Of a stretch of DNA of 64,000 nucleotides, positions 5,932 through 21,674 are shown in pieces. The stretch spans positions 1-64,000 of the forward strand of contig JANQDZ010000013.1 of the NCBI GenBank assembly GCA_028278645.1, in the 5' to 3' direction. Made by a program: the position numbers and the translations under genes. The stretch comes from Longimicrobiales bacterium (GTDB lineage Bacteria > Gemmatimonadota > Gemmatimonadetes > Longimicrobiales > Gaopeijiaceae). A model generated the notes under the pieces. That model had not been told where the DNA came from and did not search any database. It worked only from the letters and a program-made list of their open reading frames with translations. The first letter of the stretch is position 1; each line of letters starts with the position of its first letter.

Positions 5932-5976
5932 AGAGCTGACGATCGGACTCGAACCGATAACCTGCTGCTTACAAGG
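5932..5976 (-). repeat. attL: 45-bp duplicate of the tRNA-Thr(TGT) 3' half
   Basis: These 45 bases are identical to 21675-21719, which form the 3' half (anticodon loop to acceptor 3' end) of the intact tRNA-Thr(TGT). The match stops at 5976 and the rest of the tRNA is absent. This is the displaced 3' end left when an element integrates by site-specific recombination into a tRNA gene, and it marks the left end of the island. Confidence 0.93.
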
Positions 5977-6081
5977 ACTGTCCTAGAAGGGTCGAATTCG
6001 GGGGAATGCCCCCATTTACTGCACTTTTTCTACGGCTACCACCGGAATCCTGTTTCAAAAACCCGACTTTCACCGGATTCT

Positions 6082-6101
6082 GGGATACAAATGGGATACG
6101 G
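6082..6101 (+). repeat. Candidate integrase arm site, left
   Basis: GGGATACAAATGGGATACGG lies 106 bases inside the left att repeat. A near copy lies at 21599-21619, just inside the right att repeat, in the same orientation. A partial inverted copy is at 9514-9530. Paired short direct repeats flanking the cores are what arm-type integrase sites look like; binding is inference. Confidence 0.45.
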
Positions 6102-6140
6102 TTTTCCGACCGTGAGCGATGGGACTCAAAGGGTTCGTTT

Positions 6141-6160
6141 TGCACAACTACTGGCACAAG
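6141..6160 (+). repeat. TGGCACAA repeat pair, copy 1
   Basis: TGCACAACTACTGGCACAAG contains two [TG]GCACAA units 12 bases apart. A similar pair occurs at 7950-7970. The two copies bracket the J-domain and HPr-like genes. Confidence 0.35.
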
Positions 6161-6196
6161 GGATTTGAGTCACCGCCCACCAGGGGATCTGATTGG

Positions 6197-6556
6197 CTAA
6201 CCGTAATAGGTCAGGAAGTGGTAGGCGAGAAATAGGCCAAAAGCAACACAGGCCACTGTGAGGGTCCGTTCTAATGGCCCGAGGGTCGTTCGAATCAGCC
6301 TCCCATTCCAACCAACCGCCGGACGAGCTTCACTCAATACCTGCTTTACCTCCTGCCGCGTCGCATCCCCGACAAGGGTTTGATACGCATGGTTAATGAG
6401 TTGAGTCTGGCGGATCGCATCCGGGTAGGAAGCAGAGTCGGAGGGAAAGCGGTCGGGATGCCAGAGCTTCAGCATCCTAAGGTAGGCCGACCGTAACTCT
6501 GAAGAGGACGCTGTTGCATCCACTGCTAGGACTCGTCGGGCCTCGGGTTCGTTCAC
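6197..6556 (-). CDS. Short J-domain protein with C-terminal membrane anchor
   Basis: This 119-residue protein begins with a DnaJ-type J-domain: the helix II/III loop has the essential HPD (residues 33-35, in LKLWHPDRFPSD), followed by IRQTQLINHAYQTL. Residues 96-119 form one hydrophobic helix ending in HFLTYYG. J-domains recruit and stimulate Hsp70 (DnaK); the anchor would place this at the membrane. There is no Gly/Phe or zinc-finger region, so it is a specialised co-chaperone. It is the first gene inside the left end of the island and is transcribed outward, toward attL. Confidence 0.75.
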   Translation of the reverse strand: MNEPEARRVLAVDATASSSELRSAYLRMLKLWHPDRFPSDSASYPDAIRQTQLINHAYQTLVGDATRQEVKQVLSEARPAVGWNGRLIRTTLGPLERTLTVACVAFGLFLAYHFLTYYG

Positions 6557-7004
6557 GGAGTTGCTCTGGGTCCGGAAAGGTTTCTAGGCGGGAGCCATTC
6601 GCGCCCCAATGATACGCGAAGGCCGCGCTGACCGCACCCGTGCCTTTTGGCGATGAGTCTGCCCCCTTCCCTACGCCATCGGGGGGAAACCGCCGGCAAC
6701 CGCCAAAAACCGTGGGTAATAACACGGGTTTGGGCACGTTCGGGACCCTCCCCTAGCGGCCTATTCTCAACCGGGTTAATCTTTTTAATTCCCCACGAAA
6801 ACCAGAGCGTCCGGGCGGAGCGCAAAGGCTCCTCCCGCCTACCTTTGAAGGGGGCCGAAAATGCCAGGCAACGTGATCAGGTGGCCGGGTAGGTCGGCGA
6901 AGAGCTCCGTCCACTGGTTGGAAAGGCCCCCCTCTATCCGCAGCCTCCTCATCCCGGCGTTCACGGTGTTCTTGCCGACCGCATGTGCCGGTCCTGTCGC
7001 TGAA
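6557..7004. other. Non-coding or decayed stretch of the island
   Basis: These 448 bases hold no gene I can support. There is a 5-bp hairpin CCGTG...CACGG at 6710-6727 and an AT-richer patch near 6775-6800. An in-frame extension of the next gene back to 6861 reads like random sequence and lacks a ribosome-binding site. Confidence 0.4.
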
Positions 7005-7862
7005 ATGAGTGACCGACAGGTTGCTTTGCTTGTCCTTCTTTTTCTCTTCGGAGTGGCTGTAGCGCTGATGATGGCATACCAGCTGTGCAAGGTGGTGTAC
7101 TACTTCGCTTGGCGCGTGGTTGCTCCCGAAAGCTGGTACCTCAAGAACTTCAAGAAAGACCTCCTCGCCGAACGGCCAGGTGACATAAAACCTCTAAAGA
7201 GGTTTTATGCCCGGTACGGACAGACCAAGGCTTCAGACCTCTTGTTGTTTTACGTCTCTGGGGAGATAGGGAAGATGAACGCTTCAGCGCATACGTTCGT
7301 TGATGCGGACGAGGTGAATCTGGTTGCGGCTCTGATCAGGAATGCCGCAAAGGCCATAAAGGAGTACGGAGACGAGAAGAGCATCCGGCTTGCTGAAAAG
7401 GCATTCCGCATGGTGATGGGAATGATCCCGTCTGAAGCAAAAAGGGCGACAATGCTAATGGATATAGCCAAAGAGGAGATCGTATCATCCCATTCGACCA
7501 TCAATCCTCTCCAAAAGCCGATCCGAGATGCATTAGGAATTCTGACAGGAGTTGAGCTTCCTGAGATAGGAGGCCGAAAAGTAGAACGGACGGCAAGAAT
7601 TGTCATAGAGGGTGGAGTCACGAGAGATGTTGCCCAGGAGATTCCTGGGAAGGTAGGCGGTTTTGGTGCTGAGGTGTTTGTCACGAGGGAAGGTCTTGAA
7701 CCGATTGACGCGAAGACCTTTAGAATGTACGGCCTACGAGTTGAGAGGGGCGATGTAGTAAGGATATCAGCAGAAGGTGATGATGCCGAAGCTGCGGTAG
7801 ATGCCCTTTTGGGCTTCCGTTTTGAGGGTAAGGAGGTGTTTTCCCGGGTTCCCGATCCCTAG
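7005..7862 (+). CDS. Membrane-anchored protein with degenerate HPr-like C-terminal domain
   Basis: The product (285 residues from the ATG at 7005) opens with a membrane helix (VALLVLLFLFGVAVALMMAY, residues 5-24). A helical middle region of about 170 residues follows without a known domain. Residues 196-273 read like HPr, the phosphocarrier of the PTS: strand TARIVI, a GVTRD segment where HPr has GLHxRP, then EVFVTREG, DAKTFRMYGLRVERGDVV, RISAEGDDAEAAVDAL. The core and final helix match HPr closely, but the active-site His is Thr and the motif is one residue short, so phosphotransfer by the PTS is unlikely. The start is uncertain: no ribosome-binding site is visible and the frame is open back to 6861. 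The function is unknown; a regulatory or protein-binding role is inference. Confidence 0.7.
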   Translation: MSDRQVALLVLLFLFGVAVALMMAYQLCKVVYYFAWRVVAPESWYLKNFKKDLLAERPGDIKPLKRFYARYGQTKASDLLLFYVSGEIGKMNASAHTFVDADEVNLVAALIRNAAKAIKEYGDEKSIRLAEKAFRMVMGMIPSEAKRATMLMDIAKEEIVSSHSTINPLQKPIRDALGILTGVELPEIGGRKVERTARIVIEGGVTRDVAQEIPGKVGGFGAEVFVTREGLEPIDAKTFRMYGLRVERGDVVRISAEGDDAEAAVDALLGFRFEGKEVFSRVPDP

Positions 7863-7949
7863 TGATCGACGTGTCCCTCCTTCTTGGCCAGCTCCCGAGT
7901 CCTGCTGGTGTGCCTTCCCGTGGTCCCAACCGCCAGCAACCGCGGCTCA

Positions 7950-7970
7950 TGGCACAATTCCTGGCACAAC
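7950..7970 (+). repeat. TGGCACAA repeat pair, copy 2
   Basis: TGGCACAATTCCTGGCACAA (extended by one C) has two TGGCACAA units 12 bases apart, the same layout as 6141-6160. It lies 90 bases after the HPr-like gene stop. Confidence 0.35.
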
Positions 7971-7972
7971 CC

Positions 7973-8233
7973 CTACTTGGAAAACAGGACCCCCAGCAAC
8001 AGCCCTATTCTTCCCTTCGGCCCTAGGTCCGCCAGCAGGGGGTTGAAGGAGAGCCAGGGGACACCCACCATATTAGCAAATGCTGGGTGCGAAATCCCAT
8101 CGAAGCAATCCTGCAAGAGGTTTGTCGAGATACCGAGTCGTCCTGCAGTAGCGTTGTTGCCTTGTCCCACCAAGATTTCGTTGAACTGGTCTAGCCCGAG
8201 ACCAGCTTTCCGCGCGGCAGCGAGATATTCCAT
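7973..8233 (-). CDS. Small uncharacterised protein
   Basis: An 86-residue frame starts at the ATG at 8233, with AGGAGGG six bases upstream on the minus strand. This decides the start over a longer in-frame option at 8272. The protein has a short helical N-terminus (MEYLAAARKAGLGLDQFN), a Gly/Asn-rich middle and a hydrophobic end (RIGLLLGVLF). I do not recognise the family. It is convergent with the HPr-like gene and divergent from the 385-residue membrane protein at 8350. Confidence 0.5.
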   Translation of the reverse strand: MEYLAAARKAGLGLDQFNEILVGQGNNATAGRLGISTNLLQDCFDGISHPAFANMVGVPWLSFNPLLADLGPKGRIGLLLGVLFSK

Positions 8234-8349
8234 CCTACCCTCCTGTTCCCTTTCTCCATTGCCGGGATCCAATCAATCAGGTAACCTGCCTTTCCCCCCC
8301 ACAACATAGTCGCGATCCGAGACGCGTCCACCTCATAAGTGAGGTCGTT

Positions 8350-9507
8350 ATGACCGGAGAACCAACACCATTCCTTCAGGTTGATCTTGGGGAAGAGAAT
8401 GGGACCCGCGTCTTCCACTCCAAAGAAGAAGTCAAGAGGTGGATCGAGGCGGAGAAGAAATCCTGGAACTGGCTTTTGGGCTTGGGACGCCAGGTGTCAA
8501 ACACTGTGCAAACCTACTTCGACAACGTCACTGGGTACGTGAACGCCATCTCTGAGGAACCCACTCCTAACGAGGTTTCGAAGCTTCAGGGACGAATTGA
8601 ATCCGCATTCCAGGGAGAAGGTCTGCCGACGACCGAATCCCCCACAGGCCGGTTCCTGAAGGAATTGGGGGAAAGAGAACCCGCCGTCGGAGCAGGAGCG
8701 ACCTCTTTCTTTCTCCCCAAGGTCACCAATTTAGAGGTTTCTGATAAAGGGTTCTTCGAGGGTGCCCAGTTAGCCGTGTTATACGAACGGGGGATGTACG
8801 AGACCGCCGAAAGCGAGCGGGCGTCACTCCAAGCCCTTCGGAATCGCTGGGAGCAAACCTTAATTCAACAGGACGCAAGATTCCGTCAATCAGCGGATAG
8901 GGGGGACATCCTAACGAACTCCAGCGATGAAGCTGAGGTGGCTCGCGTAAAAACCTTCGATCGGTTTCTGGAAGAAGCTGTGGGAAAGAAAGACGCTTTT
9001 CTAAAGAAGGGGATCAAGGATCTAGAAGCCATCGCCAGTACTTATGACGAAAGGCTCTCACTCCAGGCCCCAGTCAAGTATTGGACGGACAAGAGCACCT
9101 ACCACGGAAGGTGGAGCAAAGTATTCGCCGCACTAACCGTCGTCGCGGCTGGTGGAGTCGTAACCGGATTAGTTTATGCATTCAATGCTTTCCTGGGAGA
9201 CGCCACCACCTATTCTCCAGCCGAGTTCTGGGAGATCGGTATCGTTGGTGCGCTCGCCGTGATCGGGGTTTGGTCCTTACGGATCCTAGTGCGAGTGATG
9301 CTCAGCCATCTCCACCTACAAGCCGACGCCGACGCCCGGGCGGTCATGGTCGAAGTCTTCCTTTCCCTGATTCGCAGTGAATCCGCCCTCGCTGACTCAG
9401 ACCGGCATCTGATCCTGAATGCCCTTTTCAAGCCGATCAGCACCGGCATCGTAAAAGACGACGCCGTCCCCACCTCCTTGCTGGACGTGGTCACCCGCTC
9501 GTCCTAG
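8350..9507 (+). CDS. Helical membrane protein, possibly DUF6161-like
   Basis: This is a 385-residue protein. Residues 1-240 are mostly charged helices, including a coiled-coil-like stretch (about 150-240, ending DLEAIASTYDERLSL). A conserved-looking APVKYWTDKSTYHGRW segment precedes two membrane helices (about residues 256-280 and 296-318). A basic/His-rich cytoplasmic tail follows. The arrangement (RWIEAE near the start, YWxxKxxxH before two helices) recalls DUF6161 from memory, which I cannot check. It lies alone on the plus strand of the island. A role is unknown. Confidence 0.65.
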   Translation: MTGEPTPFLQVDLGEENGTRVFHSKEEVKRWIEAEKKSWNWLLGLGRQVSNTVQTYFDNVTGYVNAISEEPTPNEVSKLQGRIESAFQGEGLPTTESPTGRFLKELGEREPAVGAGATSFFLPKVTNLEVSDKGFFEGAQLAVLYERGMYETAESERASLQALRNRWEQTLIQQDARFRQSADRGDILTNSSDEAEVARVKTFDRFLEEAVGKKDAFLKKGIKDLEAIASTYDERLSLQAPVKYWTDKSTYHGRWSKVFAALTVVAAGGVVTGLVYAFNAFLGDATTYSPAEFWEIGIVGALAVIGVWSLRILVRVMLSHLHLQADADARAVMVEVFLSLIRSESALADSDRHLILNALFKPISTGIVKDDAVPTSLLDVVTRSS

Positions 9508-9513
9508 AAGAAA

Positions 9514-9530
9514 CCTGTCCCATTTGTATA
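9514..9530 (-). repeat. Inverted partial copy of the candidate arm site
   Basis: On the minus strand this reads TATACAAATGGGACAGG, close to the 6082-6101 and 21599-21619 repeats. It lies just after the 385-residue membrane gene and before a stretch of broken genes, so it may be a scar of an earlier insertion. Confidence 0.3.
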
Positions 9531-9546
9531 TGATCGGCGGCTGCTG

Positions 9547-9867
9547 TTGGATGCCTTGGGAGATGCCTTCCTGAGAGGGTTCGTGTTCTTAGACATCAGC
9601 TACGACATCTACCTCAACCGGTATGAAGAAGCCGGAGAAGGCCGAGAACTTTTTTCGGAGGCGCGATTCAGGAAAATCCGGCAGAACCTCCAGTGGCCTG
9701 CCGAAACCGAGAGGTTCGAGAGGACCATCTTTGTCCGAATCGGCGCGGCGGATGAGTTTCCCAACTGGGAGAAGCCGCCAATTCAACTCCACGCGAAAGA
9801 CGATACTGAGTACAGGAGTGTGGTTTTCCCAAGGCTGATGGAGGCAGTTTGTGCGGGTTGGGTTTAG
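9547..9867 (+). CDS. Possible 3' fragment of an unknown gene
   Basis: The frame (106 residues from a TTG) has protein-like composition (FLDISYDIYLNRYEEAGEG, then FVRIGAADEFPNWEKPP) but no ribosome-binding site. The only start is a poor TTG. It begins right after a repeat scar at 9514-9530 and ends against a truncated minus-strand gene. It is more likely the tail of a gene whose front was lost than a complete gene. The family is not recognised. Confidence 0.35.
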   Translation: MDALGDAFLRGFVFLDISYDIYLNRYEEAGEGRELFSEARFRKIRQNLQWPAETERFERTIFVRIGAADEFPNWEKPPIQLHAKDDTEYRSVVFPRLMEAVCAGWV

Positions 9868-10210
9868 CCCTCGCCTCTTCTACCGCCTCGGCCCAGGCTT
9901 CAGGTTGTTCGTCGGGTGGGAGTACGGTGAGGGGTCGGGTTTGTTTCTCTGTAGTGGGCAAAACGTGGCCCGGGCCACGCCCACCACCAGCCAACCGCTG
10001 CCGGACCTCTGTTGAGCGGATCACCATTTGAACGGTCCCGCGCTCCAACCCCCACCGATCTTTGCAGTAACTAGCCCAGGTGGAGTGCGTTTCTTTGTAC
10101 AGGTCGTTGTCTCGGATGTAGCGGTACACTTCGCCCATTTCCCAGAACGACTTCAGGCACCGCTCGATGTCTGCCTCACACTCCGCCAGAGTGCGACAGG
10201 TCAGATGGGA
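9854..10210 (-). pseudogene. Truncated phage/ICE-type ParB-like gene fragment
   Basis: The minus strand encodes about 120 residues of a family I know from phage and integrative-element proteins: SFWEMGEVYRYIRDNDLYKE, THSTWASYCKDRWGLERGTV, then PTTEKQTRPLTVLPPDEQ and AWAEAVEEA. In intact members this is followed by several hundred more residues. Here the match ends at about 9854 and the frame continues into unrelated sequence. At its front it is joined near 10210 to the tail of another gene (10176-10388). It is a remnant bounded by two deletion junctions. Confidence 0.6.
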
Positions 10211-10388
10211 CTCCGGGCTCTTCGTCGACCTCCACAAGCACACTCACCTCGAACGGCAAAACCCCAAGCCCGTCTTTTGTCGACGATAGCTTTTGAAGGA
10301 GGTCCGTGATAGAGAACATCGTCGCGATTACCTTCGACTCGGTTTCGGGTGGTACGTACGCAACAATCGACAGCTTCGGTTTCGTCAT
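10176..10388 (-). CDS. Small protein coupled to the four-helix membrane gene, probably truncated
   Basis: A 70-residue frame begins at an ATG that overlaps the stop of the upstream membrane gene (ATGA at 10385-10388), so it is translationally coupled to it. The first 55 residues (MTKPKLSIVAYVPPETESK through VSVLVEVDEE) look like an alpha/beta N-terminus. The last 15 run into the frame-shifted start of the ParB-like remnant, so I suspect the original gene was longer and lost its end. The family is not recognised. Confidence 0.5.
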   Translation of the reverse strand: MTKPKLSIVAYVPPETESKVIATMFSITDLLQKLSSTKDGLGVLPFEVSVLVEVDEEPGVPSDLSHSGGV

Positions 10389-11194
10389 GCCGCAGCCTCA
10401 GTCAGAGGCTCCTGTACCTGAAGGGTTTGGAGGTATGCCGTCGCATGCCGCCCCTTCTTTATCCTGGCGATCCAGTAAGCGGGCACACAAACGGATGCCG
10501 AGATGATCGACAGGAAAAGAGCCGAAAAAAGGCCGACGGTTGAGTGCGGCCCGACGAGGGCACCTTCCGCGTACGCCTGGAATGCGATAGCCACAGAGCC
10601 AACGAATGACAGCATCACTAGTACAGCCAACACCAGATCGTGGGCTCGAAAGACCGCGTCATATGCTAAGCGTGCATAACTGGTCTGTGCACTTGTATCC
10701 GCCCGGCAGGCATGGTTGTACCCACCTATCAAGGTGTGGCTCGTCGGCAGTCCGAACTTCCTCAACTCTGCATCTATGAACTGGCATTCATGGAGGATCT
10801 TCACTCGCCTCATGCTCAGGTAGGTCGCATACGTGACTAGGTAGGCGATGAATAGAGGCGCAGCAGCTCCGAAGTGAAGGAGGGTTAACGTCTGTTCGAC
10901 GCCAAGAAGACTTACAGTGAAGGTCATACCGGGAGCTGAGATATAGAGCGTAAGGAATAGTACAGAAACACCAACGAGGAGGTGTCTCGCTCGCCGAGAT
11001 TTTTGGGCAATGCTCTCCCGAGCTTGCTCCCGGCGAATCAGGCAACCGGAGAGGAAAGCAAACTGGTCTGACGTGCAACGAACGACATCCAGCCCTCTTC
11101 GTTCCGGAACAGGGGGATTCCCGCCTCCCTTTCTCTTCTCTGGCTGATAGAATCCCGTCCCACCGTGTTTAAAGTAAACAGCCGTCAGAGCCAT
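10385..11194 (-). CDS. Four-helix membrane protein of unknown function
   Basis: This 269-residue protein has an about 70-residue N-terminal soluble part. It has four predicted membrane helices in two pairs (about residues 71-91 and 105-126, then 185-206 and 218-241), with a soluble loop between them containing ECQFIDAELRKFGLPT. The ATG at 11194 has AAAGGAG eight bases upstream. It overlaps the next gene by four bases, so the two are one operon. Paired-helix membrane proteins of this size occur as effectors in some defence loci (for example SLATT proteins), but I see no sequence motif that proves this. Confidence 0.6.
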   Translation of the reverse strand: MALTAVYFKHGGTGFYQPEKRKGGGNPPVPERRGLDVVRCTSDQFAFLSGCLIRREQARESIAQKSRRARHLLVGVSVLFLTLYISAPGMTFTVSLLGVEQTLTLLHFGAAAPLFIAYLVTYATYLSMRRVKILHECQFIDAELRKFGLPTSHTLIGGYNHACRADTSAQTSYARLAYDAVFRAHDLVLAVLVMLSFVGSVAIAFQAYAEGALVGPHSTVGLFSALFLSIISASVCVPAYWIARIKKGRHATAYLQTLQVQEPLTEAAA

Positions 11195-11960
11195 CTGATC
11201 TTCTCCTTTCCAGAGAATCCGTGTGGGTTAGCCAGTTACCTCAACAGTCCGTATTCGTCGCTCAAGCAGCCTCCAGCACTTCAATAGGATCAATCCCCAG
11301 CCGCTCCGGCGGGAAAGGCGGGGAGGGAGGTCAGAAAAAAGCGAAGAAAAGGACGTGCATCTAAGCCTGGCGTGCATTGCCCCTCGCGATCCACTCACCA
11401 GCCGCCCTGCCGTCTTCCCCTATCGTGTCGGAGATCCACCCGGGCAGATCGCCGAGAGAGTCGAAAACGTCTTTGGTCTGAATCACTACGGATAGGCGGT
11501 CGATGAAGGTGTGAAGGACACCTCCTCAGTCCCGATCGAGTTGCCAACGAAACGCGATGATCTGTCCCATAAAGAAATCCCCCCATTCCTCTATTCGAGT
11601 ACTCAGGGGGGGCTGGTCTTTCCGGCGTGCGGACAAGCTGGGAGGATCTTATCCTCCGCGCAAGTAGGTCGCCGGCGCTAACACTTCAATCCAGTCAGGC
11701 GTGTCTCCAGGCTCCCCCGAGTAAGATCACTTGCCAGCGTTCTGCCAAAAACACATTATAGGCGCAATCAAACAGACAGATTTGCATACCTCCATCCCCC
11801 CCGGAAGTTGACCATCGGATGTCAATCAGATCGATGGCCGGTGGGGGTGCTTCATTTTCATCCCTGCAGGACCTCCCCGGCCCAAGAGTAGAAGTTTCAA
11901 CGATGACGTTGAGGGCGGGCAAATTGCCCTCCCGAGGCAGGTCGGACCAAGGAGGTCATC
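11195..11960. other. Gap with decayed reading frames
   Basis: These 766 bases hold no intact gene. On the minus strand there is a gene tail ending at 11262 (residues ERLGIDPIEVLEAA then stop) without a body, and a 70-codon frame broken by a TGA (11361-11570, listed separately). A small hairpin GAGGGC...GCCCTC (11911-11931) lies in the leader of the protease gene. A 75-codon minus frame at 11695-11922 has no start signals and I do not call it. Confidence 0.45.
11361..11570 (-). pseudogene. Small gene interrupted by an in-frame TGA
   Basis: From an ATG at 11570 the frame reads MGQIIAFRWQLDRD, then TGA (codon 15), then 54 protein-like codons in the same frame (IDRLSVVIQTKDVFDSLGDL, later GRAAGEWIARGNARQA) to a TAG. 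Downstream of the TGA there is no usable in-frame start for about 15 codons. The simplest reading is a decayed gene with one nonsense mutation. The family is not recognised. Confidence 0.4.
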
Positions 11961-13283
11961 ATGCGACAGACCCTGGCCATCACACTTACCGTCCTAATGG
12001 CTGTCACACTTACTGGACCGGTGGCGGGTCCAGACGATGGGACCCCGATTAAAGGGGGCACCCCCACACAGCCGGGCGAATACGAAGCGGTTGGCACTGT
12101 TGGAGGTTGCACGGCAACGGCCATCACGAACACCCAGGTGTTGACCGCTGCACACTGCGTGTGCCCTACCGACTTCGGTACCACAGGGTGTGCGCCGACG
12201 GCCACCTTCAGGCTCCACGACGTATTCCCAGTCGACGACCCGGCTACCGCGGTGGATGAATCGAGTACCCGAACTGATTTGACCATCGCCGGTTCGGTCC
12301 GGGTACACCCCGAGTTTGGACAGCGGGGGTGGTTAAGGGATGACCTCGCAGTCATCGACCTGAACCAGCCCATCGACCAGGTTGCCCATGTGACACCGAT
12401 CCCTGTGGAGGCTCCCACCAACACGCCTTTTGAGGGTCACGCACTCGCGCTTGTTGGGTACGGAAGGACCGGCGAAAACTGCAGCGGACCCTCCGCCGGA
12501 AAGCGGAAGGTGACCATTCATGCCTCAAAAAGCGCCTGGGCAGTCATCAACTTCGACGATAAGCCGGCGTATGCGTGCCCAGGGGACTCTGGAGGCCCCC
12601 TGCTAAACACTGCCGGCCATGTTGTGGGGGTCGCCTCCTGGAATGACAACAACGGAGACAGCCACTACAGACCGACATCGTTCAGCTACAACTGGGTATT
12701 CAACCTTCCCCGACCGGGTTGGGCATGGTCTTCATGGGAAAAAGTGGAACAGGCGGGGATCAACAGCCACCAACCAGGCTCAGCCTGGTGTCCGGAAGGG
12801 ACTTTCATCGCGGGGTTTGATCTAGATGGGGACCGGGAAATCAGTTCGGCTGACGCTCCAGTAATCGGACAGGTTCTGTGCGCTGGTCTGGAGGAACCGG
12901 AGGCTTCCAGCTGGGGCTCGTGTTCCTGGGAACAGGTGGAAAAACAGGGCATCAACAGCCATCAACCCACTCCCTCGTGGTGCCCAGATGGCACCTATAT
13001 CACCCAGATTGATCTGGACCGTGATAGCGGAGCAAGTGCAAACGACTCTCCGGTTGTCGGCCAGGTCCGTTGTTGTTCCATGGCGGACGGCCATTCTCAG
13101 GAATGGGGATCGACCTATTGGATTGGCGTGGAAAAGGAGGGGATCAACAGCCACGGTTGGGGGCCACCTTGGTGCCAAGACGGGGCGTTCTTAACCCAAT
13201 TCGATCTCGACGGAGACCGCCGTCTTAGTGACTACGATGCGCCGGTCGTGGGCCGGGCCAAATGTAGCCGGCCGGGCGGCTGA
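11961..13283 (+). CDS. Secreted trypsin-like serine protease with three C-terminal repeats
   Basis: This 440-residue exported protein has a signal peptide (residues 1-22 or so) and an S1-family domain with a complete triad: His65 in LTAAHC, Asp128 in RDDLAVIDL and Ser210 in PGDSGGPLL. After about residue 253 come three repeats spaced 64 residues apart (254-307, 318-371, 382-435). Each has the pattern VExxGINSH, WCxDGxFxxxFDLDGD, DAPVVGxxxC, with an acidic Asp-rich loop like a calcium site. The repeats probably bind a ligand or surface. The ATG has AAGGAGG upstream. It sits alone in the island; the cargo protease may act outside the cell. Confidence 0.85.
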   Translation: MRQTLAITLTVLMAVTLTGPVAGPDDGTPIKGGTPTQPGEYEAVGTVGGCTATAITNTQVLTAAHCVCPTDFGTTGCAPTATFRLHDVFPVDDPATAVDESSTRTDLTIAGSVRVHPEFGQRGWLRDDLAVIDLNQPIDQVAHVTPIPVEAPTNTPFEGHALALVGYGRTGENCSGPSAGKRKVTIHASKSAWAVINFDDKPAYACPGDSGGPLLNTAGHVVGVASWNDNNGDSHYRPTSFSYNWVFNLPRPGWAWSSWEKVEQAGINSHQPGSAWCPEGTFIAGFDLDGDREISSADAPVIGQVLCAGLEEPEASSWGSCSWEQVEKQGINSHQPTPSWCPDGTYITQIDLDRDSGASANDSPVVGQVRCCSMADGHSQEWGSTYWIGVEKEGINSHGWGPPWCQDGAFLTQFDLDGDRRLSDYDAPVVGRAKCSRPGG

Positions 13284-13315
13284 CCTCGGAGAGTCCTGGA
13301 TCAGGCTTCCAGTAA

Positions 13316-14075
13316 GTAAGGGCGAACAAATCAAAAGTACTCACCAGAGAAGAGCTGTACGAAGCGGTCTGGACGAAACCTATGCGGACTTTGGCCTCTG
13401 AAAGGGGCCTCTCCGACGTCTGGTTGGCCAAGATCTGCAAGAGGGAGGGGATTCCGAGACCGGGGGTCGGGCACTGGGCAAAGGTGAAGCACGGGAGGAG
13501 TGTCTGCACAGTATTGGGACCGTGGCTGGATATCCATTTCGGTTCCCCCCAACCGACGGGTTAGTGAATCACGAAAAAGAAGCCTGGGCCTTTCGGTTAT
13601 TGGCAGGACCGAACGGTCTCCTCAGCTCGAACCCTGGAGGAAGTTGATTCTGGAATCCCGCATATCGGGAGCTCGGGTACCGATGGTGGCTCCGGTTTTG
13701 GCGGTTGCAGCGGTTGATTCATACGTGGAGTCTGCCACCGAAGAAGCCATCCACGGCAGACGACCTGACAGCTGGAATGGGGCTTTACGCAAATCATTTG
13801 GGATCCAGTTACCTGACCTCCTCGGCGAGGAAAACTACCGTCGCCTGGACCGAGTAAGGGGTGTGAGAAATGCTCTAGCCCACGGCGATAAGTTCCGTGA
13901 CACCCTCCCAGAAGATGTAAGAGACCAAGAGAGACGATTTGAGGAACACGCCGCCCTGATTGATCCTCGGCTGGCCCTTCCCCCCTATGTGGTTTTTTGT
14001 CTGTCTGAATCGCTTAGGGTCATCAGGAGTATCCGGCGGTTTCTTCGGTTAGGCCGGTGTCCCCAAGAGAGCTGA
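13316..14075 (+). pseudogene. Broken gene: TREELYxxVW domain plus HEPN-like domain
   Basis: The first frame (from 13316) encodes LTREELYEAVWTKPMRTLA, GLSDVWLAKICKREGIPRPG and HWAKVKHGR, an N-terminal domain common in uncharacterised bacterial proteins. It has no start codon before the motif; a stop lies at 13313. Near 13500 the reading frame shifts and continues for about 190 residues (13500-14075, possible GTG start at 13500). This part has a helical domain with VDSYVESATEEAI and RGVRNALAHGDKF. R-x4-H (Arg123, His128) with the following helix suggests a HEPN-type fold, often an RNase. Either the gene is decayed, or the HEPN half is now expressed alone. Confidence 0.55.
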
Positions 14076-14159
14076 GCAGCCCCACCATCCGTTAGGTAGC
14101 ATAAGTCCTGAGGTCCATCCCAGCAGTCCCAGCCGCGAGTGAGTTCGACCCACTGGCCA

Positions 14160-15431
14160 TCAATTCCCACCGCCAACCGATAGTTCAGGTAACCGGAAGA
14201 ACCTCTCCTCTCCCAGTTGGGCATTGCAAACTCTTTCTACATGCCGCCACCCAACCTGATTATTCTCGGCGTGCAGGAGCCTCCACGACCTGAGGTCGTT
14301 GGACGCGTGAACCTCCCAAGTATATGGTGCATGGCGACCTGTACAATTACTCACTCTTATCGCGTATTGCGTTAGTTGTTTTGGCTCAGCAAGCGATAGG
14401 GTGAGCGTTGCAGGGAAGGAATTCTGCACGAGCCATCCGTTCCCGTGGGCTGGACTCCCGTCAAGTGCCTTCCAGGCGGCCCACCCACCACTTACGCAGT
14501 CAGTGTCAGGATTGCTCGGTCGAACCTGAGCCCTTATCCCTCCGACTGTTCCTTCAGAACAGGAGGTCAAAGCGTTCGGCTGCCACTCACCGTCCCACTC
14601 GAATCGCATTTCGACGAGGACAAGCTGGTTTGGGCTCATAGGTGACGCACGCGGGAAGGAAAATCGGAAATGCTGGTATTCCGGTCTGGTCACCTCCCCC
14701 GAAGCCGGAGCAACACGCGTGGGCGGAGGGATCAGAACCTCACTGGTGATTGGCTCGGAACGGTCGAGGTTGAACAGCACTCTCCTGGTACGGGTGTCCT
14801 CATCCGGGCGGGTGCATGAGAGAGCTCGAACATTGGTGCCAGATGCTGATAGCATCACAGTTCTTTCTTTACATTCCACACCGGAACCGGGCTGGACGGA
14901 TACCGAGATCGCCTCGATTCCTGGGATGATCTTATAACGCAACAGAAGGCCGAACTCGGGACTATCCTCTGACTGGCTTAAGTAAGCATAGAAGCCCGGG
15001 CGGCGAACGCACTCTGCGACGACTTCTAATGCATCAGAATTGATGCGCTGGTAACGTTGCGATTCCCTGAACCTATCGAAGAACTCGCGCTGGGTATAAT
15101 CGGTGGAACTGCGCCTGAATGCCTCGAAACCGGAACTCGATGCTGAGAAGTTAAGAGGAACCAGAACCGCTTCGACGGGGATCACCGTTGAAACCCCCCC
15201 GGACAGGCTGGAAGAGTAAGTTGAACTGCTGTCGTACTTGTAGAAGCGCACCGCTCGCCGCCATTGCTCGTAGCCGATGTCTGCGGCCGCGACATCAGCC
15301 GGCCATCCGAGAGAGGCTATGGCCGAACATGGATCCATCTGGCCTGATGCTTCGGCAACTGTGCTGGCCATGCACAAGGCTACCGCAACGAAAATTGCTC
15401 GATTCTGCCGGATAGATTGAAACTGGTACAT
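14160..15431 (-). CDS. Secreted protein with C-terminal F5/8 type C (discoidin) domain
   Basis: This 423-residue exported protein has a signal peptide (IFVAVALCMASTVAEASG). An N-terminal domain of about 270 residues follows that I do not recognise. The C-terminal 120 residues look like a discoidin domain: DCVSGGWAAWKALDGSP, GWLVQNSFPATLTLSLAEPK, LTQYAIRVSN, PYTWEVHASNDLRSWRLL. Discoidin domains bind carbohydrates or surfaces. The ATG has AAGGAGG upstream. It is island cargo near the secreted protease, so both may be part of the same extracellular function. Confidence 0.75.
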   Translation of the reverse strand: MYQFQSIRQNRAIFVAVALCMASTVAEASGQMDPCSAIASLGWPADVAAADIGYEQWRRAVRFYKYDSSSTYSSSLSGGVSTVIPVEAVLVPLNFSASSSGFEAFRRSSTDYTQREFFDRFRESQRYQRINSDALEVVAECVRRPGFYAYLSQSEDSPEFGLLLRYKIIPGIEAISVSVQPGSGVECKERTVMLSASGTNVRALSCTRPDEDTRTRRVLFNLDRSEPITSEVLIPPPTRVAPASGEVTRPEYQHFRFSFPRASPMSPNQLVLVEMRFEWDGEWQPNALTSCSEGTVGGIRAQVRPSNPDTDCVSGGWAAWKALDGSPAHGNGWLVQNSFPATLTLSLAEPKQLTQYAIRVSNCTGRHAPYTWEVHASNDLRSWRLLHAENNQVGWRHVERVCNAQLGEERFFRLPELSVGGGN

Positions 15432-15959
15432 GCTGTTACCTCCTTACGGCCGCCCGGATCGGGAGAAGATAGCCGCGCTCTGGACCATGGAGTCCAACCC
15501 CTTCTTCTGGGGAAGGAAGCTCCTCGGAACTCGACCCGAGCTTACACTCGCAGTGATGGAGAACCGGGACCCGACTTCCCCGATGCATCCAAGTGAGATG
15601 GGTTTCTTCCAGAGGCGGGAAAACCCCGGCCGGTGGATCCGGCCGGCCACCACCAACCCGTGATTGGCTTGGATAAGCATCTAATCCGCCTATTTACCCG
15701 GTTAACTGTCAAGGGAAAAAATCGGTGGGCCGGAAAGCGGTGGACCGGAGGTTTGCAGCCCAACTCTCAATTCTACTGCCGGCCGCCTTTTCCCGTAACG
15801 AACCATTCGGTTCCCGGCCGGAGCCGGGCGCCTGGCTGCTTGCCCTTATCCTGCGGTCACCGCCCGGCGAGGTCCCGGAGGGGCGTTGACGGCGGTCTAC
15901 AAGGTGCTATGGGCTTGGGAGCCAAGAGTGGGGGTTGCCTTACTCTCCTGACTTCCCGG
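15432..15959. other. Gap without a recognisable gene
   Basis: I find no supportable gene in these 528 bases. There is a CCCGGC-CGGA-GCCGGG hairpin at about 15815-15830 without a T-tract and a GC-rich inverted patch around 15627-15648. Confidence 0.4.
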
Positions 15960-16388
15960 TCAGGTCTCCACTTGGACCGTATAGGTAAACCGGACCGGCT
16001 CGCTGTTGGCTATCCCCGGACCAATGCCCTCACCTATCACTGCCACCTCCCAATCCCCGGCCTCGCTCAAATCGACTGTCGTTAGATGCTCGAAGGTGAG
16101 GAGTATGTCGGCACAAATACGATCCCGCTGTTCCCAGTCGAACGGGGAAAATTCCACGCTTCGCGCCCCGTTGTCTACTGAAACGCGGACTTCCCCTTTG
16201 GACCGGCATGCGTTCCCGTAGCTATGAATCTCGACCGTGAGGGTGGAGCCGGTGAGTGCGAGCGTGATACGTGGGTCGTCGTCGTTGAATCCGGAGATGA
16301 GAGCCGGCGCTAAGTCCGGTCCCGGATCGGTCGGGCCACTACACCCGACTATCAGGAGGGCAACCACGATAGGAGCCGTCAATCTCAT
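15960..16388 (-). CDS. Small lipoprotein of unknown function
   Basis: This is a 142-residue exported protein. I start it at the ATG at 16388, which has GGAGGA seven bases upstream and gives a lipoprotein signal (APIVVALLIVGC, Cys at about residue 16). The in-frame extension upstream to 16502 has no signal character. The mature part is rich in beta strands (ITLALTGSTLTVEIHSYG, then WEVAVIGEG and RFTYTVQVET), which suggests an Ig-like fold. The family is not recognised. Confidence 0.6.
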   Translation of the reverse strand: MRLTAPIVVALLIVGCSGPTDPGPDLAPALISGFNDDDPRITLALTGSTLTVEIHSYGNACRSKGEVRVSVDNGARSVEFSPFDWEQRDRICADILLTFEHLTTVDLSEAGDWEVAVIGEGIGPGIANSEPVRFTYTVQVET

Positions 16389-16423
16389 TTCGGATATCCT
16401 CCGTGTTGGCCGGTCTGCTCTCC

Positions 16424-16630
16424 CTAGGAACGACCCAGACTCAAGAAATGTGTCACGGCCCGGGACCGAGTTGCAAGGATAAGCGCAATGCTCCGGACAC
16501 ACGCTTGCATCCCCTCCACATACCGATAGGTCCCATCGGAAAACCGTGCGTGGACTTGCCCGAAAGCGTCTTCATCGCCGGCCTGGCATCGCATGACGAT
16601 GATTCGGGGGCGAAGGCTAGCTCGGGTCAT
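16424..16630 (-). pseudogene. Remnant of an ECF sigma factor N-terminus
   Basis: The minus strand from 16630 reads IIVMRCQAGDEDAFGQVHAR, then FSDGTYRYVEGM. This is the start of region 2 of ECF sigma-70 factors (pattern RCQAGDxxAFxxLxxRYxxxxYRYV). After about 40 residues the match ends and no region 2.3-4 follows, so only a fragment remains, just upstream of the small lipoprotein. Confidence 0.4.
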
Positions 16631-16683
16631 TGATCCATCCGTGGCGACTCCAATGGAAGTGAACAGCCTGTCTTCAACTCTAG

Positions 16684-16736
16684 GGACACGACAAAGGCCC
16701 GGGAGGGTCTTGTTACCTCCGGGCCCTGACGTGTCC
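16684..16736. repeat. 53-bp extended inverted repeat
   Basis: GGACACG (16684-16690) pairs with CGTGTCC (16730-16736), and inside it GGCCCGGGAGG pairs with CCTCCGGGCC with a one-base bulge. It lies between the sigma remnant and the Ymh-like gene. No T-tract follows in either direction, so it is either a decayed terminator or a protein-binding/cruciform site. Confidence 0.5.
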
Positions 16737-16899
16737 TCAATCGACGTGACGGTGGGTTGCTGGAGGCGCCTACCTCTCCACCACCTGAAAACCAGGGTGG
16801 CTCTCGCGGTACTCGGGTTCACGGGGGAGTCTGTTTCCAGTCGGTGGACCTATAGAGGTCAGCATCTCCGCGAACTTGACCTTTTCGAAACGATCCGTT

Positions 16900-17613
16900 T
16901 TACGTGGTTTCCGCGGTGAGACCCGTTATCAAGTCGATGGCTTTTCGGCCTTCTTGCGTCAGGTGGAAGGAAGAAAAAGTGTCGAACTCGGGATCGCGCG
17001 ATGGGCTTTGGTCGATTTCCAGAAGGCCGGTTTCCACAAGAACAGACATCTGATCATCCGAGATACCCGCCTCCGCCAGTCTCTCGAAGAACCCATCCAC
17101 GACGTCGTCTACGAACCATTCCCCGTCTAATGCACGAAGAGCCGCCACAAAAGACTCAGGTTCTCCAAATTTGGACGCAATCAAACGCTCCAACCCCTCC
17201 CTCCCTCGAATGTACCTTTCCGAGGCACCGAGCATGTCCAACATCTCGCTCGCCAGGATCAAAACACGGCCTGCGCCAGTTCCGGTAATGTTGCGCCCAT
17301 CATGGGCTGCGTAGTTCCGGTAATACCGGAATGCACCCTCAAATAGCATCCGGCCCGCTTCCTGCTGTTTCGGATCAAGCGAAAGGTGGAGGTAGAGGCC
17401 CTTTTCTTGATCTAAAACCTTCCGAACCAGACGGACTCCAAACTCATTCGGCGATCCGCCTGAGTGATCCCGAAGGGCCACTTCGACCTGTTCCATGGCT
17501 TCCAAAGCCGCCTGGGAGAAGAACCCCGAATCGAAGAGGTCAAGACATTCTTTAAGAATCCGAGGGTGCAAGAATGCATCAATTCGGCTGGAGGCCCGTG
17601 TTGATTGGTTCAC
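16900..17613 (-). CDS. Ymh-family (TIGR02391-like) HEPN protein
   Basis: This 237-residue protein's first 130 residues match the TIGR02391/Ymh pattern: HPRILKECLDLFDSGFFSQA, ALEAMEQVEVALRD, EFGVRLVRKVLD, EGAFRYYRNYAAHDGRNI and VLILASEMLDML. RNYAAH (Arg99, His104) is the R-x4-H motif of HEPN RNases. A C-terminal winged-helix-like tail (LVETGLLEID, FHLTQEGRKAIDLITGL) follows. The start is a GTG. It lies 55 bases downstream of the XRE repressor on the same strand, so the two may form a regulated operon. Ymh proteins are frequent on mobile elements; their function is not established. Confidence 0.7.
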   Translation of the reverse strand: MNQSTRASSRIDAFLHPRILKECLDLFDSGFFSQAALEAMEQVEVALRDHSGGSPNEFGVRLVRKVLDQEKGLYLHLSLDPKQQEAGRMLFEGAFRYYRNYAAHDGRNITGTGAGRVLILASEMLDMLGASERYIRGREGLERLIASKFGEPESFVAALRALDGEWFVDDVVDGFFERLAEAGISDDQMSVLVETGLLEIDQSPSRDPEFDTFSSFHLTQEGRKAIDLITGLTAETT

Positions 17614-17668
17614 TGGGGATGCCGCCGCTGATTTGGTGTGAGGATTTGAGCTTCTGTCACGGTTGAGG

Positions 17669-18286
17669 TCAGGTTGGAGGACCGGTCCCCCGCATCACTT
17701 CTCGCCAGATTCCGGCCATCTCTTTTATGGAGCTTCCGTCCCCCGGCTCCGGGATGATCGCTTGAATCGCAGCGAGGAGGGCCTGGAAATAGGCCATCCG
17801 CTGATTCCAGCCCACCCCCTCGGGATCAATGGCCTTCAGCGGTGCCAACACCCAACGGGCCACTTCGTCAGCGAGCTGCGAAAGGTCGTCCGGGAGACCT
17901 TCAGACCACTCGGCGGGGGAGGCAGCCCCCACGTGCACGAGAAGCGAAGACAGTTTCCCGTAGGCATCTGGATGAACTCCATCTAACTCAGGATGAGCGG
18001 CCTTGAGGTCCAGCATGAACCTCTCCAATTCCCCCCGCTCTTCCTGCATCTCCGCCCATCTGGATCCTTCTCCTGTTACTAACCAAACCAGGGAAACACC
18101 AATGCAACTGGAAACCCTAGCCAGGTAGGAGACGGTAGGTTCTCTGTCCTGGTGGTATTGCCGAACGCTCTCGTACGACAGATCGAAATCGCCGCCCTCT
18201 CTGAGCCTCTGCCACCAGGCACGGAGAGAGATGCCGACAGTCTCTCGCACATCTTCAAGCCGTTTCGCGTACTCGCTCTGTTTCAC
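17669..18286 (-). CDS. XRE-type phage/island repressor
   Basis: This is a 205-residue protein. Residues 1-75 form a helix-turn-helix of the CI/XRE type (LSYESVRQYHQDREPTVSYL and ARVSSCIGVSLVWLVTGEG, the classic VSLxWLLTGEG end). The C-terminal part is helical without a visible LexA-type peptidase site. The start is a GTG at 18286. It is divergent from the ribbon-helix-helix gene at 18399, with a palindromic operator between them, the layout of a lysogeny or excision switch. Confidence 0.75.
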   Translation of the reverse strand: MKQSEYAKRLEDVRETVGISLRAWWQRLREGGDFDLSYESVRQYHQDREPTVSYLARVSSCIGVSLVWLVTGEGSRWAEMQEERGELERFMLDLKAAHPELDGVHPDAYGKLSSLLVHVGAASPAEWSEGLPDDLSQLADEVARWVLAPLKAIDPEGVGWNQRMAYFQALLAAIQAIIPEPGDGSSIKEMAGIWREVMRGTGPPT

Positions 18287-18313
18287 TTTTCCGCGTTACC
18301 GTTCCCAGGATAC

Positions 18314-18351
18314 TTGACATAGCCAGGATGCGGGGTAGTACTACCAGCATC
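18314..18351 (+). promoter_or_regulatory. Divergent control region with palindromic operator
   Basis: TTGACA (18314-18319) is followed after 16 bases by TAGTAC. This -10 lies inside a perfect 12-bp palindrome GGTAGTACTACC (18334-18345), flanked by GATGC (18327-18331) and GCATC (18347-18351), giving a 25-bp imperfect palindrome. It drives the plus-strand ribbon-helix-helix gene and is well placed for repression by the divergent XRE protein or by the RHH protein itself. Confidence 0.5.
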
Positions 18352-18398
18352 CGTGTAGGTGTTACTCCGTTCCTGGAAACCTAGGCCAGAGGAGACAG

Positions 18399-18566
18399 AT
18401 GACACAAGGCAAACGGAAACAAGAACCTGTATGGACGTTTCGAGCATCGAACGCTGTGACGGACCGAGCCAACGACGCAGCCGAAGGGCTCGGCATTAAC
18501 CGCAGCGAATTCATCCGGAGGGCGATCCAGGCGGCAGCTGATCGGTTGGCGAAAAAAGCAGCCTAA
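18399..18566 (+). CDS. Ribbon-helix-helix (CopG/Arc-type) DNA-binding protein
   Basis: A 55-residue gene begins at an ATG with AGAGGAG upstream. The product is a typical small RHH protein: a basic N-terminus, strand PVWTFRAS, helix NAVTDRANDAAEGLG, turn INRSEF, helix IRRAIQAAADRLAKKAA. Such proteins act as dimeric repressors or excision-control factors. It is divergent from the XRE repressor and lies about 570 bases upstream of the integrase on the same strand. Confidence 0.75.
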   Translation: MTQGKRKQEPVWTFRASNAVTDRANDAAEGLGINRSEFIRRAIQAAADRLAKKAA

Positions 18567-18689
18567 CGAATCAAGCCCGCCGCTTCCCCCCTTCCAAGGT
18601 TCCGCGACGGGCAAAGTACCACGACCCCGAGGGATCGCGCCAAAAGGGTATGCGCGCTGCCTCTCTGGGGCAAGAGACTGGAGCCGAGT

Positions 18690-19139
18690 ATGGTGGACCT
18701 CTTTTCCCCTCAATTCAGGATGTTTGATCTGACACCTAATCCAATCGATGGGCGCGGTTTTCGCGAAACGCCCCGGGCCATAGAGGATATCCCAGACTGC
18801 GGGATTTCTGAGGGTGATTGGGTGGTGCATGCCTATTCTGCGCAGAAGCGTCACCTCAAAAGGATTCGTGTCCCCTTCACCCAACTACCTCGAACGAAGT
18901 ACCAGGCTCTTTTGGACGGTTTCAACTCACTCCAGCTGGTCGCCCGGTTCAGCCCACACCGGACCCTTCGCCGAAACCTGAAGAACAGCATGGCACAACG
19001 CGGCAAACAGCCTGGCCCCGTGGTCATCGTTCGTCCGCTCTGGAGTGGTGTCTCTGAACCGATCCACGCTGCCTCGGCGGAGGCTGCAATCTTCGAGTTA
19101 ATCCGGCCTGTCGGCTGTCGGATGCCGAAGGAGGTGTGA
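18690..19139 (+). CDS. Uncharacterised protein upstream of the integrase
   Basis: A 149-residue frame starts at an ATG with GGAG six bases upstream. It ends in a TGA at 19137-19139, two bases before the integrase ATG, so the two would be coupled. The sequence is basic in its second half (LPRTKYQALLDGFNSLQL, then PHRTLRRNLKNSMAQRG) and matches nothing I know. It occupies the place where an excisionase is often found, but there is no recognisable helix-turn-helix. Confidence 0.45.
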   Translation: MVDLFSPQFRMFDLTPNPIDGRGFRETPRAIEDIPDCGISEGDWVVHAYSAQKRHLKRIRVPFTQLPRTKYQALLDGFNSLQLVARFSPHRTLRRNLKNSMAQRGKQPGPVVIVRPLWSGVSEPIHAASAEAAIFELIRPVGCRMPKEV

Positions 19140-19141
19140 CG

Positions 19142-20371
19142 ATGGCAAAACGAAAGAAGCTTTGGTCGAAGCAGATCGAGGAGGCTGGACTTTCGATCCG
19201 GTTGTTCGAGCGGACGACGGGCGGCGTAATCTCGTTGTCCATCGTGACCGGCAGGAAGGACGGGGAGGCCCAGAAGTACGTGAAGTCCACCGGGCTCAGA
19301 AACAAATCCGATGCCGAAGAGAAGGCCCGGGCTGTCGCCAGGAGCGTGGCCAAACTGATCATCAACGCCGAGGACCTCCAGTCCCTTACCTTGGGCCAGG
19401 TCCTCCAAAAGTTCTTCGCCGAAAAAGCGCCGTCATATACCGAACGGTGGAGGAAGCACGCCGAGACCCGCAGGAACCTGTTTATAGCAGCTTGGGGTGT
19501 TGATAAACGGGTTGAGGACATAGGACAGTCAGATGTGGACCGCTACGCCTCACAGAGGCGCTCAGGGGCGTTAAAGCCACCGGGCTCCAGGGTGAAAGCT
19601 GTCCGTGACGGGACGATCGAAGCCGACCTCCGGTGGCTTGCGTCAGTGTTCAATTGGGCGAAGGGCGTGAAGGTCAACCGGAAGAGACTCTTGGCCTCAA
19701 ATCCTCTGACTGGTCTAAGACGGCCCAGGGAGGAGAATCCCAGACGGCCCGTCGCATCCCATGACCGCTACCTGAAAACTCTGGCGAAGTGTGATGAAGT
19801 CGATCCCGAAGGGCGGCTCCAGTGTATGCTCGCCCTCGCACGCTTCACGGGTCGCAGGGAGGGTGCGATATGCCAACTCAGGGCCGACGACGTTCTGAGG
19901 GGAAAGCAAGACGTCAGAGCGGCGCTGGCAGCCCTGGGCCTCGATGAAAACGCCGCTGACCATTTCCCTAACGGCGGCATCCGATGGAGGGCCGAAACCG
20001 ACAAGGTCGGACTCGATTCCATCACGCCGCTGAATGGCCAGGCGAGGGAAGAGATGGACCGCTACCTGGAGAGGAACCCCCGTATCGGGAACACGCCCCT
20101 CTTCCCTTCTCCAAAGGATCCAGCGAAGCCTTTCCGGGGCGACATCGCCTCCAAGTGGCTCGTGAAGGCTGAGAAGCGCGCAAAGCTTCCGAAGCTGGCG
20201 GGCGGGATCTTCCACCCCTATCGGCGGCTGTTCGCCATCGAGTTGAGAGCACTGCCTGTTCATGACGTAGCCGCTGTTGGTGGATGGAGAAGCGTCCGGA
20301 CTGTACAGCAGATTTACCAGCGTGCAGAACCAGCGGGAGTCCTAGGAGCGATCGAACAAGTGGGAAGCTAA
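19142..20371 (+). CDS. int: Tyrosine recombinase / integrase of the island
   Basis: This 409-residue site-specific recombinase has an N-terminal arm-binding region, a core-binding SAM-like domain (LTLGQVLQKFFAEKAPSYTE, about residues 80-180) and a catalytic domain. The catalytic domain has Arg in FTGRREGAICQL, HPYRR (H-x-x-R), Trp in GGWRS (often His) and the nucleophile Tyr in VQQIYQRA. I start it at the ATG at 19142, with GGAGG seven bases upstream; a GTG two codons earlier is possible. It lies 1.3 kb from the intact tRNA-Thr(TGT), the usual position for the enzyme that inserted the element there. Confidence 0.92.
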   Translation: MAKRKKLWSKQIEEAGLSIRLFERTTGGVISLSIVTGRKDGEAQKYVKSTGLRNKSDAEEKARAVARSVAKLIINAEDLQSLTLGQVLQKFFAEKAPSYTERWRKHAETRRNLFIAAWGVDKRVEDIGQSDVDRYASQRRSGALKPPGSRVKAVRDGTIEADLRWLASVFNWAKGVKVNRKRLLASNPLTGLRRPREENPRRPVASHDRYLKTLAKCDEVDPEGRLQCMLALARFTGRREGAICQLRADDVLRGKQDVRAALAALGLDENAADHFPNGGIRWRAETDKVGLDSITPLNGQAREEMDRYLERNPRIGNTPLFPSPKDPAKPFRGDIASKWLVKAEKRAKLPKLAGGIFHPYRRLFAIELRALPVHDVAAVGGWRSVRTVQQIYQRAEPAGVLGAIEQVGS

Positions 20372-20421
20372 GCCTTGGGCGGATGATTCATCACTCTACT
20401 GTCGAAACCAGCCCTCAAAAT

Positions 20422-20463
20422 ACAGCTTATCGTTGCTCCTGATCTGGAGGGAGGATAAGCTGT
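20422..20463. repeat. Perfect 10-bp-arm inverted repeat after the integrase
   Basis: ACAGCTTATC (20422-20431) and GATAAGCTGT (20454-20463) are exact inverted repeats with an inner CTCC/GGAG pairing. No T-tract follows. It lies 51 bases after the integrase stop and could be a terminator remnant or a protein-binding site. Confidence 0.5.
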
Positions 20464-20531
20464 GTCCATAGAAGGAACGATCGGCCTTTTCCTCACCTTC
20501 AGGCATCGTATCCAAGACCGAGGGGAGTAGG

Positions 20532-21509
20532 ATGACCCGTTTGCTGAGGAACAACATCACGTCCGCGCTTGCTGGTATCGGGGCCGCGGGGCTCATAGCT
20601 CAAGAAGGGTTAGACCGATTCCCGGGGTCCTCTCCGGAACTGGCTCTGGCCATCGGCCTGGGTCCAGCACTTGTCTTGGTTATTTATGGGCTGGTGAGGG
20701 CTCGGAAAAGTGCTGGGAAGGAGGCGGAAGAAGAAGGGACTGACCAACAAGAGGGATGGAAGCCTGAGTACCCAGCCGCAGTCCTTGGATTCGCTGCGGT
20801 GTTCGTTTTGCGGGCCGTGGCTGGATTCGCACCTCAGGTACTCCTCGGGTCCCCCAGTTTCGGGTGGGAGCGCGGAGGACAAGTGGCGGTTCTGAGTGTG
20901 CCGGTCCTGAACAACGGTGATTTCCCGGTCCACCTGGAACGCATAATTGTCGACGTTCAGTCGGGCAGCGCCGGTGCATGCTTTCCCCCACTTTCGGACA
21001 GGGTGGACTATGCACTCATCGATAGTGTCACCATCGCCGAATTCGACCTTCGGGGAGTTCAGGGCACGCTACCGATCGAATCGTTGTTGGACTCCATACA
21101 ACCCATTCGGGTCGCCACCGTGTCGGTCGAGGGTACGACCCGTGCGGAGTGTCCTCTGTCTCGGGTTGAGCTTAGCGTGCCCGTGGACGCGATTGTTGGT
21201 GATAATGGCCTAATGTTCCAGTTACACATTCCGACCGAGTTCCGGATAATCGAGAGTGACTCATCCCTCGCCAAGCGGCACCGCCTTATCCCCACCCTCC
21301 GTGAAGACACCGTTCAGATGGCCATCTATGGTTTCGATTCAAACCTCCACCGCCTGCTTGACTCCACGCGTTGGGTTGATACGCTGACCTGGTACCCTCC
21401 TATGTCCGGTTCGCCGTCAACCAATGGCAGAAGCACCCTGATCATCTTGACTGCGGAAACAAACGTAGGCCCCTCCCGACCTGTCACTCTCGCCGATCCC
21501 TGGTATTGA
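20532..21509 (+). CDS. Membrane protein of unknown function at the right island end
   Basis: This 325-residue protein has membrane helices near residues 8-25, 35-56 and 82-103. An extracytoplasmic beta-rich domain of about 200 residues follows (PVLNNGDFPVHLERIIVDVQ, then CPLSRVELSVPVDAIVGD and QLHIPTEFRIIE). The ATG at 20532 has GAGGGGAG upstream. It is the last gene before attR. The family is not recognised; the domain resembles an Ig-like sensor. Confidence 0.6.
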   Translation: MTRLLRNNITSALAGIGAAGLIAQEGLDRFPGSSPELALAIGLGPALVLVIYGLVRARKSAGKEAEEEGTDQQEGWKPEYPAAVLGFAAVFVLRAVAGFAPQVLLGSPSFGWERGGQVAVLSVPVLNNGDFPVHLERIIVDVQSGSAGACFPPLSDRVDYALIDSVTIAEFDLRGVQGTLPIESLLDSIQPIRVATVSVEGTTRAECPLSRVELSVPVDAIVGDNGLMFQLHIPTEFRIIESDSSLAKRHRLIPTLREDTVQMAIYGFDSNLHRLLDSTRWVDTLTWYPPMSGSPSTNGRSTLIILTAETNVGPSRPVTLADPWY

Positions 21510-21598
21510 CGGTGTTGGGGAACACCCGGGTTTAGCGCCTATTGTCGCGGGTCGAACCCCAGAACGGGCCGGCAGCCAGTGTACTTATTCTTCCGCAC

Positions 21599-21619
21599 GG
21601 GACACAAACGGGATACAGG
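21599..21619 (+). repeat. Candidate integrase arm site, right
   Basis: GGGACACAAACGGGATACAG (plus one G) is a near copy of 6082-6101, in the same orientation, and ends 55 bases before the right att repeat. Confidence 0.45.
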
Positions 21620-21630
21620 TCGGTTCAAGC

Positions 21631-21662: not shown

Positions 21663-21674
21663 CTTGGCTTTCTT

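Follow-up and report, generated by a model that had tools for sequence, protein, structure and literature searches.

A predicted membrane-anchored HPr-like domain that has lost both phosphorylation sites, carried by an integrative element of a Longimicrobiales bacterium

HPr is among the best-studied bacterial phosphocarriers. All of the HPr relatives compared here are either phosphocarriers or small proteins that lack the phospho-histidine and carry Ser46. In FPr, FruB and DhaM, as in the protein described below, HPr forms one domain of a larger polypeptide (a larger PTS protein in those three cases; PMC2405797). Mobile-element products that act on the mannose-PTS proteins ManYZ against phage are also known: DicB, from the Qin prophage of Escherichia coli, acts on ManYZ and blocks phage (PMC6832061), and the membrane nuclease SNIPE associates with ManYZ (PMC13190303). 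Within the portion of the literature on histidine-less HPr proteins, HPr-like domains and phage inhibitors of the PTS that our search covered, no membrane-tethered HPr was found.

Here, we describe such a protein from a window of 64,000 nucleotides (the whole stretch of DNA that was analysed). The preliminary description of this locus had placed an HPr-like domain at positions 7590–7823, corresponding to residues 196–273 of a 285-residue product, and its frame, coordinates and quoted residues are correct. The gene and its parts, together with a candidate upstream extension, are as follows.

7005–7862, + strand: gene for the 285-residue membrane protein (transmembrane helix, helical region, HPr-like domain)
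6861–7004, + strand: upstream in-frame extension with a candidate alternative start (333 residues in all), AAGGGGG ahead of it
7014–7100, + strand: transmembrane helix, residues about 4–32, strongly hydrophobic
7120–7565, + strand: helical region, residues about 39–187 (roughly 150 residues), helices predicted at low confidence
7581–7811, + strand: HPr-like domain (PF00381), residues 193–269, from Pfam and the structure model

The start codon is uncertain between ATG 7005 and the in-frame ATG 6861; the latter has the better ribosome-binding sequence but the less coding-like composition (codon-position G+C of 0.52/0.60/0.79 for 6861–7004; 7575–7862 has a coding-like 0.68/0.44/0.46), and would add 48 residues, including a weakly hydrophobic segment. 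No promoter-like site was found upstream of the gene. The tether to a membrane helix that had been proposed from the sequence is supported by a single N-terminal membrane helix, with a mean Kyte–Doolittle hydropathy of up to 2.9 over 19 residues, and because the roughly 40 residues that follow it contain 10 lysines or arginines versus 4 aspartates or glutamates, the C-terminal part with the HPr-like domain is predicted to lie in the cytoplasm. The helical region had no family match of note in Pfam, NCBIfam or PADLOC. A single-sequence AlphaFold2 model of the whole protein (mean pLDDT 57) was too uncertain to assign this region a fold and had no PDB match at E ≤ 0.001, with HPr among its weak matches (TM 0.48 on the target). 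A defence-family identity for the protein was considered and rejected, the best PADLOC match (E = 0.023) being unrelated.

Sequence comparison and the predicted fold together show that the C-terminal domain descends from HPr. PF00381 (PTS-HPr) was matched at 37.6 bits (cut-off 23; E = 2.4 × 10−9), or 40.6 bits for the domain alone, and was the sole Pfam family in the whole protein, with no fused EIIA or EI domain; the score stayed below the NCBIfam cut-offs for HPr equivalogs and subfamilies. The solved E. coli HPr matched the domain at E of about 2 × 10−5, and a hidden Markov model built from 20 other HPr sequences scored it at 51.8 bits, compared with a best of 11.2 bits among 5,000 shuffles, and gave no score to any other open reading frame of the window. 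An AlphaFold2 model of residues 189–285 reached a pLDDT of 88 and a pTM of 0.81, from an alignment whose 20 HPr rows bias it towards HPr. When this model was searched against the PDB, the top 39 matches were all HPr, Crh or NPr, the best being HPr (probability 1.00) with an r.m.s.d. of mostly 1.2–1.7 Å and Crh and NPr following further down. Structure prediction and structure search, which had been suggested as a check, thus returned the HPr topology and no different fold, in agreement with the profile matches. In the model, helix C is shortened, and a brief additional beta segment comes after it.

The alignment of the domain to HPr is ungapped internally and confirms that the phospho-histidine is missing, as the preliminary description had noted: the GLHxRPA site reads GVTRDVA at residues 204–210, with His15 replaced by Thr206, Arg17 by Asp208 and Pro18 by Val. 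The loss of Ser46 had not been part of that description. The corresponding residue is Lys in the ungapped alignment and Thr in a gapped one (Ser in neither), and IDAKTFRM stands where the host HPr has NGKSIMGV. Read from the alignment, then, neither phosphorylation site survives in the element protein; histidine-phosphocarrier activity is not expected, since both His15 and Arg17 are replaced, and the domain differs from Crh-type regulatory HPr proteins, which have Ser46 without His15. Among 80 HPr sequences taken from named genomes, 78 have a GLHxR-type site with its histidine. The two exceptions have Gln (a Crh-type protein) or Ala (a protein from Saccharofermentans) in its place; both are small and both have Ser46. 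The latter, encoded at positions 2426–2686 of sequence L082 from a Saccharofermentans metagenome-assembled genome, is a free-standing HPr-like protein that reads DALAMKA, lacks the phospho-histidine and keeps Ser46.

We also assessed whether the changes are spread evenly over the domain, using a list of 19 HPr positions that we take to contact EI, EIIA, HprK or CcpA in known complexes. Departure from the HPr family was measured in BLOSUM units and compared between these positions and the rest by 20,000 position permutations. The loss was 3.21 units at the interface versus 0.91 elsewhere (P = 0.0003), and 2.11 versus 0.92 (P = 0.03) in the gapped alignment, which is the one most favourable to conservation. 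The histidine-less Saccharofermentans protein, used as a control, revealed no interface bias (1.17 versus 1.01; P = 0.36). Of seven HPr control rows, one (L030) likewise showed the greater loss at the interface (−1.66 versus −0.53). The pattern thus occurs outside the element protein too, and is good, though not decisive, evidence for specific rewriting. Few of the 19 positions are conserved (the residues aligned with 15, 16, 17, 20, 24, 45, 46 and 54 differ), and there is a Pro-Gly within helix A; the position of E. coli Lys27 is Gly, as it also is in the host HPr, to which the domain is only about 27% identical. The HPr core and the F48-like and L53-like residues are kept. These comparisons show that the core of HPr was retained, and the case they make for a specific rewriting of its PTS-facing surface is good without being conclusive. 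They give no support to the earlier proposal that the domain senses or sequesters a PTS partner, as the positions that contact EI, EIIA and HprK have changed far more than the rest; of the original interpretation as a whole, the fold, the missing histidine and the tether are supported, and the PTS-partner function finds no support in the sequence.

No relative of residues 1–190 was found in 395 genomes across the phylum or 154 genomes of the order, and no full-length relative was found in pattern scans of genome contigs and viral contigs or among phage and plasmid records. The membrane-HPr protein is therefore a singleton, for which purifying selection cannot be shown. Weaker HPr matches in related genomes were considered as candidates and proved to be ordinary HPr genes with GLHARPA, GMHARPA or GFHARPA sites. 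HPr was present in 93 of the 121 genomes of the family, with the element domain as the only weak second copy. The host itself encodes, on one contig, hprK, a mannose-type EIIA/EIIB/EIIC/EIID set (gene names that we assign from our own reading of the open reading frames), ptsH with a normal GLHARPA site and ptsI; with HPr, EI and HprK intact on the chromosome, the host has no need of the element copy for phosphate transfer.

The genomic setting, which likewise goes beyond the preliminary description, is an integrative element of 15.7 kb (window positions 5932–21719) that carries the membrane-HPr gene as cargo. Its relevant features are listed below.

5932–5976, no strand: left 45-bp attachment repeat, an exact match to the 3′ end of tRNA-Thr
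21675–21719, no strand: right attachment repeat, 45 bp, at the 3′ end of an intact tRNA-Thr(TGT) at 21676–21749 (− strand)
19136–20371, + strand: tyrosine recombinase (integrase) of the element (PF00589, E = 6 × 10−7)
8350–9507, + strand: adjoining cargo, a DUF6161/AbiZ-like membrane protein (PF19658, E = 7 × 10−22; PADLOC AbiZ, E = 9 × 10−16, residues 220–381)

The two attachment repeats are direct repeats that match perfectly over their 45 bp. A sister species within the genus lacks the element: there, tRNA-Thr comes immediately after the left flank (up to window position 4353), and an insert peculiar to that genome separates the tRNA from cysS (window position 28736 onward). The repeats, the integrase and these element-free flanks identify the gene as mobile-element cargo. 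Segment 4395–5824, which separates this flank from the left repeat, is also missing from the sister species and may be a second, separate insertion; its open reading frames look outer-membrane-like and TonB-plug-like by eye. In a genome of another genus, the same tRNA-Thr adjoins a different element of approximately 7.4 kb (positions 8165–15600 of sequence L121), whose integrase is homologous but whose cargo is unrelated; the tRNA therefore looks like an insertion hotspot. AbiZ, which the neighbouring cargo protein resembles, is reported to speed holin-driven phage lysis in Lactococcus (PMC6356687). We considered DUF6161 as a fixed partner of the membrane-HPr protein, but the family was found in only one of 298 genomes of the phylum, namely this one. 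Other cargo includes a secreted trypsin-like protease, a Hypoth_Ymh protein and a DnaJ-domain membrane protein, and several open reading frames have no family. The trypsin-like protein (11961–13283) contains three 26-bp repeats spaced 192 bp apart (window positions 12744–13153), which represent tandem modules of about 64 residues in its C-terminal part.

What, then, might an HPr without phosphorylation sites do at the membrane? The element protein is probably a reused binding module and not a phosphate carrier, and the rewritten PTS-facing surface, combined with the kept core, makes it the most likely reading that the HPr fold was retooled to serve the mobile element as its membrane-anchored binding module, to which we would give about an even chance. 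The domain would bind, at the membrane, a partner other than the usual partners of HPr, and the module would serve survival of the element in its host, for example through anti-phage defence or control of host physiology; the adjoining AbiZ-like gene counts in favour. Against retooling, the gene could be decaying, that is, a recently acquired orphan or degenerating cargo with no function in this host and an active site changed by drift. The protein's status as a singleton, the several cargo genes without family, the ambiguous start codon and the lack of a promoter-like site upstream all point that way, but the frame is unbroken over 285 codons with a coding-like codon pattern, the hydrophobic core and HPr fold appear intact in the model, and the substitutions cluster on one surface and are not evenly spread, and we therefore regard decay as a doubtful, if serious, alternative.

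Nearly as doubtful is a dominant-negative decoy, unphosphorylatable and membrane-tethered, that would still bind EI, EIIA-Man or HprK and thereby block the mannose-type PTS of the host or shift its location; it could hinder phages that enter via ManYZ-type proteins, much as DicB does in E. coli. The host has the requisite mannose-family operon, HPr, EI and HprK, the precedents of DicB and SNIPE exist, and the HPr core with its F48-like and L53-like residues is kept; however, the interface-concentrated substitutions count against a simple decoy role, as do the Pro-Gly in helix A and the low identity to the host HPr. Action at the mannose PTS, as a decoy or in superinfection exclusion, is thus possible but unproven, and the fuller proposal, that the element deploys such an HPr mimic against this PTS either to stop competing phages for which it is the entry channel or to reset host carbon signalling, strikes us as improbable. 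Least probable is a phosphorylatable, Crh-like regulator in which Thr206, Asp208 or the Thr near Ser46 accepts phosphate from HprK or EI: the host encodes HprK, the gapped alignment places a Thr at position 46 and Crh is a precedent for HPr without His15, but Crh retains the Ser46 that the element domain lacks, the ungapped alignment has Lys there, and little of the surrounding NGKSIMGV stretch survives. Returning to the retooled binding module, an HPr copy that held on to its core and gained an anchor, but gave up its two phosphorylation sites and most of the surface that meets partners, would show the HPr fold reused outside phosphotransfer. Were the mannose PTS indeed its target, the protein would tie cargo of the element to an established route of phage entry and, as an HPr mimic, would represent a class of PTS-targeting exclusion protein undescribed in the literature searched.

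Together, these results indicate that the membrane-HPr observation is real and unusual, and that it concerns a single sequence. Set beside DicB and SNIPE, which are mobile-element or defence proteins at mannose-PTS membrane proteins, the element protein offers a functional analogy only, with no sequence relation shown. Crh of Bacillus and the Saccharofermentans protein resemble the element domain in having the HPr fold without the phospho-histidine but, unlike the element protein, are small and free-standing, with Ser46 and the greater part of the surface retained. The HPr domains of FPr, FruB and DhaM are phosphocarriers fused to EIIA or EI, whereas the element HPr has a membrane anchor and no active site. 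HPr (PtsH) of the E. coli and Vibrio type (1poh, 7x7h_B) has the same fold (TM 0.83 on 7x7h_B, r.m.s.d. 1.6 Å) and is about 32% identical over 77–79 residues; the element domain differs from it in lacking His15, Arg17 and Ser46, in its shortened helix C and short extra beta segment, and in forming the C-terminal part of a fusion with a membrane helix and a helical region.
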